From Mesoterricola sediminis (lineage in GTDB: Bacteria > Acidobacteriota > Holophagae > Holophagales > Holophagaceae), in assembly GCF_030295425.1 (NCBI RefSeq), contig NZ_AP027081.1, positions 2,420,965 through 2,484,964 on the forward strand: a stretch of 64,000 nt of DNA, given 5' to 3'. Below the pieces are notes generated by a model. The model was not told the origin of the DNA. It ran no database searches and saw only the letters and a list, made by a program, of their open reading frames with translations. Every line of letters begins with the position of its first letter. Positions within the stretch are counted from its first letter, which is position 1. Shown here one piece after another: positions 6,511-12,806 of the stretch. The position numbers and the translations under genes were made by a program.

Positions 6511-7797
6511 TCAGGCCCCCAGGACCTCGGTCAGGGCGGCCGCCGACACCGGCAGCGGCTCCGAGCGCAGGGGCTGGTCCGCCAGGCGCGCCAGGGCTTC
6601 CGGCAGGGGCACGCGGATCCCCAGGTGGGCCTCCAACACCTCCAGGAATTTGGCGGGGTGGGCCGTTCCCAGGAAGATCCCGGGCTCGCCGGGCCGCAGG
6701 TGGTCCCGGAGGACGGCGGCGGCCACGGCGGCGTGGGGATCGGCCAGGTACCCCGCCGCATGGAGGGCGCGCAGGGAAGCGACCGTACCCGCGTCGTCCA
6801 GGCTGCCCCAGCGCAGGCCCGCCCGGAGGGCGTCCAGATCGTCCCCCACCAGGGCCCGCACCCGCTCCCAGTTGCTGGGGGCCCCCACGTCCATGGCGTT
6901 GGAAAGGGTGGCCAGGGAGGGACGCGGCCGGTAGGCCCCCGAGTCCAGGTGATCGGGTACCGTGCGGTTGGCGTTGGTGGCGGCCACGAGGGCCCGAAGG
7001 GGCAGGCCGAGCTTCCGGGCCAGCATTCCCGCGTACAGGTTCCCGAAATTGCCCGAGGGCACGGCCACCACCGGGGGGGCCGCGACCCCGGCGCGGCGCA
7101 GGGCCGCCACCGCCTCGAAGTAGTAGAGGGTCTGGGCCAGCACCCGGGCGATGTTGATGCTGTTGGCGGAGGTGAGGCCCACCCGCCGGGCGAGGTCCCC
7201 GTCGGCGAAGGCGGCCTTGGCCAGGGCCTGGCAGTCGTCGAAGCTGCCCGCCACCGCCAGGGCCCGCACATTGCCGCCCAGGGTGGCGAACTGGCGCTCC
7301 TGCAGGGGGGAGACCCGCCCGGCCGGATAGAGCACCACCACCCGGAAGCCCTCCAGGCCATGGAAGGCGCTGGCGACGGCCGCCCCCGTGTCCCCGGAGG
7401 TGGCGGTGAGCACCAGGCGGGGCCGGTCCTCGCGCCGGGCCTCCAGTTGCAGCATGCGGGCCAGGAACCGGGCCCCGACGTCCTTGAAGGCCAGGGTCGG
7501 GCCGTGGAACAGCTCCAGGGCGTGGAGACCGGGGGCCACGGGCACCAGGGGCACCGGGAAGTCCAGGGCGCCGGCCGTGGCCGCCGCCAGGTCCTCCGCG
7601 TCGTATTCATCCCCCAGGAAGCGGCGGACGAGCTCCACCGACCGGTCCCGCCAGCCCAGGTCCAGGAGGGCCTCCACGTCCGGGAAGGGGGTCAGGTCCA
7701 CGGGGGCGTAGAGGCCGCCGTCGGGGGCGGTCCCCGCCTGGACGGCCTGGCTGAAGGTCGCGGTGGCGCGCGGATCGCGGGTGCTGGCGAGTTTCAT
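6511..7797 (-). CDS. thrC: Threonine synthase
   Basis: PLP enzyme converting O-phosphohomoserine to threonine, last step of the pathway. 428 residues, close to the usual length of the longer ThrC class. The N-terminal region has the SQAVQAGTAPDGGLYAP pattern of ThrC, the PLP-binding Lys is in HGPTLAFKDVGARF, and the phosphate-binding glycine/serine region is in TATSGDTGAAVASAF. The ATG at 7797 overlaps the TGA of thrB (ATGA), so translation is coupled. Last gene of the thrABC operon; no clear terminator is seen between it and the chemoreceptor gene. Confidence 0.96.
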   Translation of the reverse strand: MKLASTRDPRATATFSQAVQAGTAPDGGLYAPVDLTPFPDVEALLDLGWRDRSVELVRRFLGDEYDAEDLAAATAGALDFPVPLVPVAPGLHALELFHGPTLAFKDVGARFLARMLQLEARREDRPRLVLTATSGDTGAAVASAFHGLEGFRVVVLYPAGRVSPLQERQFATLGGNVRALAVAGSFDDCQALAKAAFADGDLARRVGLTSANSINIARVLAQTLYYFEAVAALRRAGVAAPPVVAVPSGNFGNLYAGMLARKLGLPLRALVAATNANRTVPDHLDSGAYRPRPSLATLSNAMDVGAPSNWERVRALVGDDLDALRAGLRWGSLDDAGTVASLRALHAAGYLADPHAAVAAAVLRDHLRPGEPGIFLGTAHPAKFLEVLEAHLGIRVPLPEALARLADQPLRSEPLPVSAAALTEVLGA

Positions 7798-8750
7798 GGC
7801 CGTCCCTCCCCCGCCAGGGCGCGGGCGCCCCGCGTGTCGAGGGCGCAGACCCAGGCCTGGCTTTCGATGCCGGCTGCGGTGAAGGCCCCCTGCACCGCGT
7901 CGGCCACCGCGCGGGCCCGGGCGTCCGGGACCACGGCGAAGACGGAGGGACCCGAACCCGACAGGCTGAAGCCCAGGGCCCCGGCCGCGAACGCGGCGGC
8001 CCGGGCGGCCTCGAAGCCCGGCACCAGGGGGGCCCGGTGGGGCTCGGCCAGGGGATCCCGCAGGCAGCGGGCCAGGAGGGCCCGGTCCCCGGCGTGGAGG
8101 GCGTGGACGAACCCGGCCAGGTTGCCGGCGAAGCCCACCGTGGCGGCCAGAGGCACGGCCGCGGGCAGGACGGCCCGGCTTTCGGCCGTGGACAGGGCCA
8201 GGTCCGGGTGGACGACGGCGAAGAGCAGGTCCCGGGGCCAGGGCAGGTCCCGGGCCGCGGCCCCGCCGTCCCGGCCCGGCACCACGAGGCGCAGGCCGCC
8301 GAGAAGGGAGGGGGCGACGTTGTCCAGGTGGGGGGCGCCGCTGGTGGCCCCTTCGGCCTGGCCCGCCAGGTCCAGGAGTTCGCCTGGCGCCAGGGGCGAT
8401 CCGGCCAGGTCCTGGAAGGCGGCCAGGGCCGCCACGATGGAGCTGGCACTGGAGCCCAGGCCACTCTTCACGGGAAGGCGCTTCTCCAGGACGAGGCGCA
8501 GGGGGCCGGGTCCCCCGGTCCGCGCCCGGAACAGGGCCAGGGCCCGGAGCGCCAGGTTGGGGCGCGCGTCCCCGGCGAGGGCGTCCGCGAAGGGGCCCTC
8601 CACCAGGAAGGTGTCGGCCGCGGCGGGGGAGGCGCGCAGCACGTCCCCCAGGAGGGTGCCGTCCAGGGGCGCCAGGGCGGCCCCGAGCAGGTCGAAGCCC
8701 GCGGCCACGTTGCCGATGCTCGCAGGGGCGAAGTAGGCGCGCATGCTCAT
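7794..8750 (-). CDS. thrB: Homoserine kinase
   Basis: GHMP-family kinase that phosphorylates homoserine; 318 residues, usual length. The N-terminal GHMP motif starts [17 protein letters not shown], the ATP-binding glycine/serine loop is [18 protein letters not shown], and the C-terminal GHMP motif is [14 protein letters not shown]. The ATG at 8750 overlaps the thrA stop as ATGA, and its own stop overlaps thrC the same way, so the three genes form one strictly coupled operon. A second ATG two codons later is an alternative start. Confidence 0.96.
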
Positions 8751-11164
8751 CGGACCAGCCTCAGCACGTCGGAGAGGACGCCGGCGGCCGTCACCGCCCC
8801 GCCCGCGCCGTAGCCCCGCACCACCATGGGGTGGGGGCTGTAGCGTTCGGTGAGGAAGGCGTAGGCGTTCTCGCCCCCCTTGACTCCGGCCAGGGCATGG
8901 CCCGCGTCCACGGCGGTGAGCCCCACCCGCGCCCCCTCGGGCGTGATGGACCCCAGGTAGCGCAGGATGCCGCCCTCCGCCGCGCGGCGCGCGAAGGCCG
9001 CGTCCAGCTCCGGCAGCCGCGCCATGAAGGCGTCCACGCTGCCCGAGGCGTCGAAGTCCGCGGGCAGCAGGCCCTCCACCGCCACGTCGGCCAGTTCCAG
9101 CTCCAGCCCGATCTCCCGGGCCAGGATGAGGAGCTTCCGGGCCACGTCCATGCCGCTCAGGTCGTCCCGGGGGTCGGGCTCGGTGAAGCCCTGGGCCCGG
9201 GCCTGGGCCACGGCCCGGCTCAGGGGCACGCCTTCGCCCAGGAGGCCGAGGATGTAGGAGAGGGAGCCGGAGAGCACTCCCTCGAAGCGGAGAACCCGGT
9301 CCCCGGTCTTCACGAGGTTCTGGAGGGTGTCGATGACCGGAAGGCCCGCGCCCACGTTGGTCTCGTAGAGGAACTTGCGGGCGTGGCGCCGGCAGAGGTC
9401 CCGCAGCCCCCGGTAGAAGGCGGCGCCGGAGCTGTTGGCCTTCTTGTTGGCCGCGACCAGGTGCAGGCCCGCCTCCAGGATCTCCGGGTAGCGCGCGGCG
9501 AGCGCCTCGCTCGTGGTGCAGTCCACGAAGACCGGGACCACGGGGCGCTCGGCGCGCACCTCCGCGAGCACCGCGTCCAGGCTGGTGGGGACGCCCCCCG
9601 CCGCCAGGTCCTCCCGCCAGGTCTCCAGGGAGGGGTCGCCGAGCATCCGCCGGCCGTTGGCGACGCGGCGGACCCGCAGGTCGATGCCCTCCTCGCGGAA
9701 CTTGGGCTGCTGCTGCCGGATCTGGTCCAGGAGCCAACCGCCCACGTTCCCTGCCCCGAACAGGTAGAGGTCGAGGGTGCCCCGGGTCCCGAAGAACCGG
9801 CGGTGCACGTGGGGCATCACCCGGCGCGCGTCCTCCTCCCGGACGACGGCGGAGATGATGCGCTCGCTGCTGCCCTGGGCGATGGCGGCCACGTTGCAGT
9901 CGACCTCCCCCAGGGCGTCGAAGAAGGTCCCGGCGAGTCCGGGGCGGGTGCGCATGCCGTCGCCGACCACGCTGAGGATGGAGAGGCCCTCCTGGCGCTC
10001 CACCGCCTCCACGATGCCCGCGGCGCGCTCGGCCCGGAAGGCCTCCTCCAGGATGCGCACGCCCTGGTCCCCGTCCTCGCGGCGCAGCCCGAGGCAGATG
10101 GAGAGCTCCGACGAGCACTGGCTGATGAAGACCACGGACAGGTCCCGCCGCGCCAGGGCGCTGAAGGCGCGGGAGGCCATGCCCGGCACCCCGGCCATGC
10201 CGGGGCCCGTCACGTTGAGCAGGACGATGGAGGGCAGGAAGGAGACGCCCCGGACCCCGCCCGGCGGGGCCGCCACGCCGTCCCGCACGAGGGTGCCGGG
10301 GTGGCCGGGCTCGAGGGTGCTGAGCACGCGGATGGGGATGCCCCGATCCCGCACCGGGGCGATGGTCTTGGGGTGGAGGACCTTGGAGCCGAAGAAGGCC
10401 AGCTCCATGGCCTCCTCGAAGCTGACCTCCGGCAGGGAGAAGGCCTCGGGCACGAGGCGGGGGTCGGCGCTGAAGACCCCCGCCACGTCGGTCCAGATCT
10501 CGACCAGGTCCGCGTCCAAGGCCGCCCCGGCCAGGGCCGCCGTGTAGTCGGAGCCGCCCCGGCCCAGGCAGAGGGTGCGCCCCTGCGCGTCCCCCCCGAA
10601 GAACCCCGGCAGCACCAGCAGCCGCTCCGCGCCCTCCCGCAGGGGCTGCAGCCGGTCGCGGATGTCCTGGACGCGGGGCCGGGCCTCCATGGGATCCCCC
10701 TCCAGGACGATGAACCGGCGGGGATCCAGGAGGCGCGGGCCGAGGCCGGCGGCGTCCAGGAGCGCCGCGAGCACGGCGCAGGAGGCCCGCTCCCCCAGGC
10801 AGGCGAGGTTCGCGGTGACCGTGGGGGACCGCTCGCCCACCAGGGCCACCCCCTGCAGGATGCGGCCCGCCTCGTCGCCCAGTCCGGCCAGGTCCCGGCG
10901 CAGGGCCGGGGCCTCCCCCAGTTCGGGGCGGAGCTCCTCCACCAGGTCCAGGTGGCGCTGGAGGAAGGTTCCGGCCGCGGCCTCCCCCCCCGCCAGCAGC
11001 AGGTCGGTGACCCCCGCGAGGGCCGAGGCCACGAGGCAGACGCGACGGGCCGGCAGGGCCGCGGCGACCAGGCCCGCCACGGTCCGCATGCGCGCGGCGT
11101 CCCGGACGCTGGTGCCTCCGAACTTCATGACGTGGAGGCGGTCGTGGCGGTTGGACTGGGTCAT
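8747..11164 (-). CDS. thrA: Bifunctional aspartokinase / homoserine dehydrogenase
   Basis: Carries the first and third steps from aspartate to homoserine. 805 residues, typical of fused ThrA. The kinase domain starts at [12 protein letters not shown] (residues about 12-290) with [11 protein letters not shown] as the catalytic region; two ACT-type regulatory domains follow (about 310-465, with [13 protein letters not shown]), and the dehydrogenase starts at [14 protein letters not shown] with [11 protein letters not shown] and the catalytic region near [10 protein letters not shown]. The ACT domains imply feedback control, presumably by threonine. The ATG is preceded by GAGG and sits 20 bases after the attenuator hairpin. 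Confidence 0.96.
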
Positions 11165-11184: not shown

Positions 11185-11213
11185 AAAAAGCCCCGCGGCC
11201 GGAGCTGCGGGGC
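11185..11213 (-). terminator. Attenuator hairpin of the thr operon
   Basis: On the minus strand GCCCCGC (11213-11207) and GCGGGGC (11196-11190) form a perfect 7-bp stem with a 10-base loop, followed at once by TTTTT (11189-11185). This is an intrinsic terminator placed between the leader peptide and thrA, 20 bases before the thrA start. Confidence 0.85.
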
Positions 11214-11253
11214 GGTATCTGGGGGAAGCGCTGATCCTTAGGAGACCGCCCGC
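11207..11253 (-). promoter_or_regulatory. Antiterminator pairing of the thr attenuator
   Basis: GCGGGCGGT at 11253-11245, inside the last codons of the leader peptide, can pair with ACCGCCCCGC at 11216-11207 with one bulged C. The second segment contains the 5' arm of the terminator, so the two structures exclude each other. A ribosome waiting at the leader stop codon (11240-11238) would cover the first segment and allow termination; one stalled at the Thr codons further upstream would leave it free. Confidence 0.7.
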
Positions 11254-11360
11254 GCGCCGATGGGCCGACCGGTGGTGGTCGTGATCAGCATGCCCATGCC
11301 CATGCCCTGCCGGCCCGTCCAGGACGGGGCGATGCGGGGGACGGCGGGCCGGGGGCTCAT
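11238..11360 (-). CDS. thrL: thr operon leader peptide
   Basis: A 40-codon frame starting [12 protein letters not shown] and ending with [22 protein letters not shown]. The control region has four consecutive Thr codons (11282-11271), preceded by Ile, Leu and three Met codons alternating with Gly. This is the composition expected of a sensor for threonine-family aminoacyl-tRNAs, compare the Thr/Ile-rich thrL of enterobacteria. The start at 11360 has GGTGGAG close upstream; a shorter version starting at one of the Met codons (11303) is also possible. It is followed by the antiterminator/terminator pair. Assignment rests on composition plus position. Confidence 0.75.
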
Positions 11361-11366
11361 GGCTCC

Positions 11367-11395
11367 ACCATCGCGGATTTCCCCCCCCCGGTCAA
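11367..11395 (-). promoter_or_regulatory. Candidate thr operon promoter
   Basis: TTGACC (11395-11390) followed after 17 bases by GATGGT (11372-11367). The -35 is good and the -10 poor. If correct, transcription would start near the first leader ATG, which would favour the shorter leader start. Confidence 0.3.
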
Positions 11396-11455: not shown

Positions 11456-11484
11456 TTGACAGGCGGCGCCCCGGGGGCGAAGCA
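11456..11484 (+). promoter_or_regulatory. Candidate promoter for the iron-sulfur protein gene
   Basis: A consensus -35 TTGACA (11456-11461) with a 17-base spacer leads to a poor -10 (GAAGCA, 11479-11484) that touches the first ATG. If used, translation might start at the later ATG (11514). It is divergent from the candidate thr promoter about 60 bases away. Confidence 0.3.
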
Positions 11485-12806
11485 TGAAAACATCCACTTC
11501 CAGCAGCGCGGCCATGTCCCACATCGCCCTCAAGGATAGCTACCTCGCCCTTTCGGAGCGCCTGAACCGCTTCCCCCAGGGCGCCCCGCCGTCGGAGCTG
11601 CTCTTCCGGATCCTGGAGACGCTCTTCAGCCCCGAGGAGGCGGCCCTCGTGGCCCAGCTGCCCATCCGCCCCTTCTCGGCGGCCGCCGCGGCCCGGATCT
11701 GGAAGCGGCCCGTGGCGGAGGCCGAGGGCGTCCTGGAGGCCCTGGCCTCCCGCGGCATGCTCCTGGACATGGAATCGGAAGGGCGCCGGACCTTCGTGCT
11801 GCCGCCGCCCATGGCGGGCTTCTTCGAATTCTCCATGATGCGCGTCGGCAACGGCTACGACCAGAAGCTGCTGGCGGAGCTGTTCCACGCCTACCTCAAC
11901 GAGGAGGAGGACTTCGTCCGCAACCTCTTCGCCGGCGGCGAGACCCAGCTGGGACGCGTGTTCGTCGACGAGGGCCCCCTGGCCCGGGAACCCGGCCTGG
12001 AGGTGCTGGACTACGAGCGCGCCTCGGAGGTGGTGAAGGGCGCCGCCCACATGGGCGTGGGCACCTGCTACTGCCGCCACAAGATGAGCCACCTCGGCAA
12101 GGCCTGCGACGCCCCCATGGACATCTGCATGACCTTCGGGGGCACGGCCCAGTCCCTGGTGAAGCACGGCATCGCCCGGCGCGTGGACGCGGCCGAAGGC
12201 CTCGACCTGCTCCAGCAGGCCCGGGAGCGGGGCCTGGTCCAGTTCGGCGAGAACGTGCGCAGCAAGGTCGCCTTCATCTGCAACTGCTGCGGCTGCTGCT
12301 GCGAGGCCCTCCTCGCCGCCAAGCGCTTCGCGTGGCTGCACCCGGTGGCCACCACGAACGTCATCCCCGAGGTGGACGGCGCGGCCTGCGACGGCTGCGG
12401 CAAGTGCGTCACCGCCTGCCCCGTGGAGGCCATGGGCCTCGTTTCCGCCGGAGACCCCCACCGCCGCGGCCGGCGCAAGGCCCGGCTGGACCCCGACCTC
12501 TGCCTGGGCTGCGGCGTCTGCGCCCGCGCCTGCGCCCGGGGCCGGATCCGCCTCCGTCCCCGCCCCGTCCGGGTCCTCACCCCCGCGACCACCGCCCACC
12601 GCGCCGTGGTGATGGCCATCGAGCGCGGCGGCCTCCAGCACCTCATCTTCGACAACCGCGCCCAGTGGAATCACCGCGCCATGGCCGCGATCCTCGGCGC
12701 CATCCTGGCCCTGCCCCCCGTGAAGCGCGCCCTGGCGAGCCGCCAGATGAAGTCCATCTACCTGGACCGCCTCCTGGCCTCCCATCCGCCGGCGCGCCGG
12801 GACTGA
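11484..12806 (+). CDS. Di-cluster 4Fe-4S protein with winged-helix-like N-terminus
   Basis: 440 residues. Residues about 25-100 look like a winged-helix region (ILETLFSPEEAALVAQLP then VAEAEGVLEALASRGML). A cysteine-rich middle has GTCYCRHKMSHLGKACDAP and the unusual CNCCGCCCEAL. Two ferredoxin motifs follow: CDGCGKCVTACP and CLGCGVCARAC, each fitting one 4Fe-4S cluster. The C-terminus is basic and helical. Such proteins occur in anaerobes next to redox enzymes, but none is adjacent here, so the role (electron carrier or redox-linked regulator) is open. A second in-frame ATG at 11514 could be the true start. Divergent from the thr leader. Confidence 0.8.
   Translation: MKTSTSSSAAMSHIALKDSYLALSERLNRFPQGAPPSELLFRILETLFSPEEAALVAQLPIRPFSAAAAARIWKRPVAEAEGVLEALASRGMLLDMESEGRRTFVLPPPMAGFFEFSMMRVGNGYDQKLLAELFHAYLNEEEDFVRNLFAGGETQLGRVFVDEGPLAREPGLEVLDYERASEVVKGAAHMGVGTCYCRHKMSHLGKACDAPMDICMTFGGTAQSLVKHGIARRVDAAEGLDLLQQARERGLVQFGENVRSKVAFICNCCGCCCEALLAAKRFAWLHPVATTNVIPEVDGAACDGCGKCVTACPVEAMGLVSAGDPHRRGRRKARLDPDLCLGCGVCARACARGRIRLRPRPVRVLTPATTAHRAVVMAIERGGLQHLIFDNRAQWNHRAMAAILGAILALPPVKRALASRQMKSIYLDRLLASHPPARRD

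Follow-up and report, generated by a model that had tools for sequence, protein, structure and literature searches.

The region upstream of thrA in the window (the whole 64,000-nucleotide stretch of DNA that was analysed) is best explained, as judged from its sequence, by ribosome-mediated transcription attenuation of the thrABC operon, and we consider this mechanism highly probable. Sequence and comparison could establish the leader and the terminator, the two pairings that exclude each other, and the conservation of all these elements. Both the anatomy of the window and its conservation throughout the family Holophagaceae support the original prediction, in which threonine attenuation was ascribed to a leader peptide with Thr codons.

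The window belongs to a genome of 4.52 Mb in a single contig. The named near matches of its thrA are from Holophagaceae (e.g. UBA692), which confirmed the earlier guess that the host is an acidobacterium. A complete thrA-thrB-thrC run follows the leader on the minus strand. The thrA gene (8747..11164) encodes a bifunctional aspartokinase-homoserine dehydrogenase with AA_kinase, ACT, NAD_binding_3, and Homoserine_dh domains, thrB (7794..8750) was assigned as homoserine kinase (GHMP kinase) by domain match and an examination of the start choice, and thrC (6511..7797) encodes threonine synthase with Thr_synth_N and PALP domains. The neighboring gene on the plus strand (11484..12806), which is divergent, showed a match to ferredoxin-type domains.

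For comparison, sequences upstream of thrA were collected from 56 Holophagaceae genomes, which fall into 9 sequence groups. In the window, the leader is an ORF of 40 codons (11238..11360, minus strand) that is probably leaderless and stops 76 nt before the thrA start. Its translation agrees with the predicted peptide, as the sensor stretch contains three Met codons, codons for Leu and Ile, and a row of four Thr codons (ACG ACC ACC ACC). When the 200-nt upstream region was shuffled with its dinucleotides preserved, four Thr codons within eight turned up in 2 of 2000 shuffles. A short leader ORF in which codons for the amino acid made by the operon abound is present in the window and, as homologous leaders, in 55 of the 56 family members.

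Between the leader and the first structural gene lies an intrinsic terminator (11185..11213, minus strand), which reads GCCCCGCAGC-TCCG-GCCGCGGGGC followed by TTTTT, i.e., a 10-bp stem with one mismatch and a T5 tail. The terminator was also recovered in a second scan (1 site against 0.1 expected), the stem was present in 54 of 54 leaders scanned, and the arms CCCCGC and GCGGGG were invariant in alignment A1. The 5′ arm of the terminator is shared with an antiterminator. Its 5′ segment (11235..11259, minus strand) spans the leader stop, from the final codons to the bases just after the stop, and occupies the same position in other genomes; its 3′ segment (11202..11223, minus strand) overlaps the terminator 5′ arm. 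The duplex between 11259-11235 and 11223-11202 has an energy of -25.0 kcal/mol (z -2.5) and was equalled in 2 of 200 shuffles. The duplex and the folds contained the arrangement proposed earlier, namely an antiterminator pairing codons near the leader stop with the terminator 5′ arm, and a hairpin with a T-run before thrA.

When an 85-nt segment of the window, from the Thr codons to the terminator, was folded, the antiterminator formed and the terminator did not. Removal of the bases that would be covered by a ribosome at the stop caused the terminator to form, in keeping with the proposal that such a ribosome would mask the first antiterminator segment, 11259-11235. The total fold energy of this region is ordinary for RNA of such high GC content (z -0.88), so it is on conservation that the case depends. 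In every genome, the pairing segment takes in roughly four to seven codons at the leader end, together with the stop and as many as about ten bases after it. The antiterminator duplex, always located over the last codons and stop, was better than the shuffles at the 5% level or beyond in 48 of 54 genomes, the weak ones being in groups g10, g5, and g8 and one in g4.

In folds for the two ribosome positions, the terminator formed in all 54 cases when the ribosome was placed on the stop, and the antiterminator formed in four of four (the window species and three close relatives) when it was placed on the first Thr codon. The expectation that folding would recover both structures was borne out in these four, but not in many members of genus g3, where, even with a stalled ribosome, the terminator prevailed in the full-length fold of minimum energy. 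The full-length minimum-energy fold was dropped as a stand-alone test because it ignores the order of synthesis, and because of these mixed answers in genus g3. Both antiterminator arms would be made before the terminator 3′ arm, and the order of synthesis would thus favor the antiterminator; the switch in genus g3 would have to depend on kinetic folding doing so. Covariation was uninformative for the terminator and antiterminator, as the shared arm is invariant and the segment at the leader end slips register between genera. A 1:2 pause hairpin was unsupported: in most groups, the segment had no excess pairing to the upstream leader, in a test that is weak in GC-rich RNA. A 1:2 pause, or anti-antiterminator, hairpin is typical of classical attenuators and is not strictly required for the mechanism.

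The original prediction had named relatives devoid of Thr codons and hairpins as the finding that would speak against it. Among the thrA upstream regions compared, 55 of the 56 kept both the leader and a GCCCCGC-type terminator, and nearly all leaders were Thr-rich. Leader lengths vary from 34 to 48 codons in the genomes with a fixed TTGAC spacing (see below), the leaders end 38-115 nt before thrA, and the terminator follows the leader stop by 20-37 nt. That the leader, its stop, the pairing segment, and the terminator all recur throughout the family rules out chance. In one family member alone (L060, genome G054), thrA has no leader; there it is situated directly behind the end of another ORF, which by eye reads as metX-like, and this thrA may be co-transcribed with methionine genes. 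Genomes lacking thrA were set aside as possible counter-examples, because six of the seven Holophagaceae genomes of this kind that were checked also lacked any homoserine dehydrogenase match. The near-complete genomes without thrA and a Homoserine_dh match are G014, G024, G032, G033, G036, and G065, which suggests that they have lost the synthesis of homoserine, threonine, and methionine.

In the proposed mechanism, RNA polymerase would start at approximately 11360, and a ribosome would begin the leader at the 5′ end of the transcript or within a base or two of it. With plentiful charged tRNA-Thr, the ribosome would reach the stop and cover 11259-11235, so that the terminator at 11213-11185 forms and transcription stops before thrA. 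Under a shortage of charged tRNA, the ribosome would stall on the Thr block, some 25-50 nt upstream, and the segment 11259-11235 would be free to pair with the terminator 5′ arm, allowing the polymerase to proceed into thrABC. Sensing of tRNA-Ile, and perhaps of tRNA-Met or tRNA-Asn, would play a lesser part. The transcription start, the translation of the leader, the stalling, and the amino-acid response are parts of the scheme that we infer.

The codon content of the sensor was determined in 51 distinct control regions (codons -22 to -7) and compared with thrA and with the rest of the leader. Thr accounted for 29.5% of the control region and 3.4% of thrA (8.7-fold), and Met, Asn, and Ile were 3.4-fold, 4.7-fold, and 2-fold commoner, respectively, than in thrA, while Asp, Glu, Lys, Ala, and Val were depleted. 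Genus-averaged enrichment over thrA (Poisson) gave p values, dependent on the choice of control window, of 7e-27 for Thr, approximately 5e-4 for Met, 0.017 for Asn, and 0.03 for Ile, with no enrichment of Lys. It is possible, rather than likely, that the leader senses several amino acids (Thr, Ile, Met, and Asn), reading those derived from homoserine and Asp jointly. The genus-averaged enrichment of these four amino acids argues for such a function, as do the leaders of genus g4, which have few Thr codons but contain Ile-Met-Ile-Asn or Ile-Met-Met-Ile. The dependence of the p values on the window weakens the argument, as does the fact that ATG, AAC, and ATT/ATC are one base away from Thr codons. 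In addition, the excess over the rest of the leader was only 1.6-fold for Met and 2.7-fold for Asn, both based on small numbers, and since Met also makes up 4.6% of the rest of the leader, the sensor-specific excess of Met is small.

The earlier claim that Met codons had been added to the sensor was thus upheld only in part, the family-wide enrichment over thrA speaking for it and the comparison within the leader against it. Moreover, the GMGMGM run that provides the three Met codons is private to the window species, with a Met count of 0-3 in its relatives, and the thr leaders of Pasteurellaceae likewise mix Met with Thr and Ile, so that Met in a thr leader is not new. As a separate observation on codon choice (L006-L061), 72% of the Ile codons in the control region were ATT, against 24% elsewhere in the leader and 6% in thrA; GGT and AAT were also strongly preferred in the sensor region and less so in the rest of the leader. 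The preference for ATT would be consistent with slow decoding by wobble or with a requirement for RNA that folds weakly.

The leader is probably translated from a leaderless mRNA, with the transcription start predicted at the leader ATG. A -35-like hexamer, TTGACC (11390..11395, minus strand), is followed after 17 nt by a putative weak -10 hexamer, GATGGT (11367..11372, minus strand), located 6 nt before the leader ATG in a geometry that is fixed across genera. In 51 of 55 Holophagaceae leaders, TTGAC precedes the start codon by 29 or 30 nt (29 nt in 41 leaders and 30 nt in 9, with L053 a further one at 29 nt). A spacer of 17-18 nt together with the -10 hexamer leaves about 6 nt, which places the leader ATG at approximately +1. 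Bacterial leaderless genes are recognised by a -10-like signal approximately 10-12 bp before the start (PMC3160421). Both the fixed TTGAC spacing and the probable leaderless start were overlooked in the original prediction.

It is unlikely that transcription begins further upstream, with the leader preceded by a 5′ UTR and the constant TTGAC distance reflecting shared descent or some other element. Such a start would be consistent with the poor -10 hexamers, with the finding that the promoter scan gave no sigma-70 match at its consensus cut-off, and with the four leaders without TTGAC at this spacing (L055, L058, L059, and L061), of which L055 has too little upstream sequence. However, the distance of 29 or 30 nt is kept in 51 genomes of seven sequence groups despite differing spacers and leader lengths, and anti-SD pairing was weaker before the leader (median -3.4 kcal/mol) than before thrA (-5.8 kcal/mol). 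The trpE leader of the same genus, by contrast, has GGAG and a 5′ UTR. The leaderless start is thus the preferred reading. We regard as doubtful the full combination in which 70S ribosomes translate the leaderless leader, an RNA-polymerase pause hairpin is dispensed with, several aspartate-family tRNAs (Thr, Ile, Met, and Asn) are sensed, and wobble-read NNU codons have been chosen for slow decoding.

That the leader controls thrA by translation coupling, a stalled ribosome opening or closing the thrA start instead of affecting termination, is very unlikely. The short distance of 76 nt between leader stop and thrA start would allow it, and a leaderless leader of the polycysteine type that acts by translation coupling is known in mycobacteria. 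Nevertheless, nearly every relative has a T-tailed terminator stem between leader and thrA at a constant distance from the leader stop, and several genomes keep the spacing between leader and terminator even where the thrA start lies further downstream. There is least of all to be said for an ordinary intergenic terminator or a protein-controlled attenuator with the Thr run as an accident of GC-rich ACC repeats, which would agree with the GC-rich region and its usual fold energy but not with the divergent orientation of the neighboring gene, which leaves no same-strand upstream gene in need of a terminator here, the recurrence of leader frame, stop position, pairing segment, and terminator across 9 genome groups, or the 8.7-fold Thr enrichment in the control region.

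Other apparent leader-peptide attenuators were observed in genus g1, before trpE and, two in tandem, before hisG. A pair of His-rich leader ORFs, e.g. VTFTVIHHRHSH.. and MNLNFRHHAHPPLPG, lies upstream of hisG (L177, L178, L179, and L181, from G000, G067, G070, and G066, respectively). A hairpin follows each of them (CCCCCCGG..CCGGGGGG in one case, GCCCCGG..CCGGGGC plus a T-run in the other); in L178, the first His leader starts at -277 and the second at -124 relative to the hisG match. These form an apparent double His attenuator, confined to genus g1 among the family members checked. A terminator and a Trp leader, e.g. VVLSLNSLTWNWSWWPQGSGVGMGRLIS, were seen upstream of trpE (L190-L194; near 2504682 of G000:C1). 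This leader differs from that of thr in having an apparent 5′ UTR and, in several genomes, GGAG ahead of its GTG start. A Leu-rich short ORF, MFSLNVLNLHLGLLLISGAGED, with TTGACC about 32 nt before it, lies upstream of a leuA-like gene in G000 (L203) and is a possible leucine attenuator, in which no clear T-run terminator was seen.

The results place classical thr leader-peptide attenuation far beyond the enterics, in a phylum without such a report in the literature searched, and the approximately 55 related attenuators constitute a natural comparison set. If the leaderless start is correct, this set tests how ribosomes can load in time when both an SD sequence and a clear pause hairpin are missing, and also whether a mixture of Thr, Ile, Met, and Asn codons acts as a graded multi-amino-acid sensor. 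No relevant report of thr attenuation in Acidobacteria or Myxococcus turned up in the literature searched, which takes in few subscription papers.

The closest thrA genes outside Holophagaceae are those of Myxococcus and relatives, with 57-61% identity. In the Myxococcus-Corallococcus group (L063-L070), the seven genomes with a TTGAC-spaced leader have a poly-Thr leader of comparable length and layout and the terminator GCCCCGCGC. These leaders differ in that their Thr runs are almost pure (up to 10 or 11) and that TTGAC stands at 31-32 nt and not at 29-30 nt; no TTGAC-spaced start was found in L069, which is more divergent. An exchange of operon and leader between Holophagaceae and the Myxococcus group is plausible. 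The acidobacterial family f24 (L172-L174) also has a short Thr-rich leader, e.g. METMTTTTTTIGVDGRCG, and a stop segment able to pair with the next hairpin, but its stem, CCATCATCCGC..GTGATGG, is unrelated, pointing to more than one origin or rebuilding of the device. Most other acidobacterial families with thrA, which served as a negative control, had no convincing leader upstream. The scheme that had been described as best known from enteric bacteria is accordingly not confined to them, the Myxococcus group and f24 having versions of their own.

The system resembles thrL-thrABC of Gammaproteobacteria in its Thr/Ile-coded leader, the stop over the antiterminator segment, the intrinsic terminator, and thrABC downstream, and the thr leaders of Aeromonas, Pseudoalteromonas, and Pasteurellaceae, which we compared directly, follow the same plan. 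In comparison with enteric thrL, the Holophagaceae leader is about twice as long, has a predicted +1 start without an SD sequence, lacks support for the 1:2 hairpin, and has Met and Asn mixed in. An Rfam search of the window gave no family at the gathering score, only weak matches to unrelated sRNAs, and no match to the covariance model of the gammaproteobacterial threonine operon leader. Thus, the Holophagaceae attenuator works like enteric thrL but stands outside its Rfam family. In the Sinorhizobium meliloti trpL (rnTrpL) attenuator, the transcript begins at the ATG of the leader ORF (PMC7298713). RNA beginning with the leader ATG, measured there and predicted here, is what the two systems share, whereas the S. 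meliloti leader is 14 amino acids long, responds to Trp instead of Thr, and belongs to Alphaproteobacteria. The attenuator type is a known one; what is new is the phylum in which it occurs, together with its probable leaderless start and its mixed sensor.
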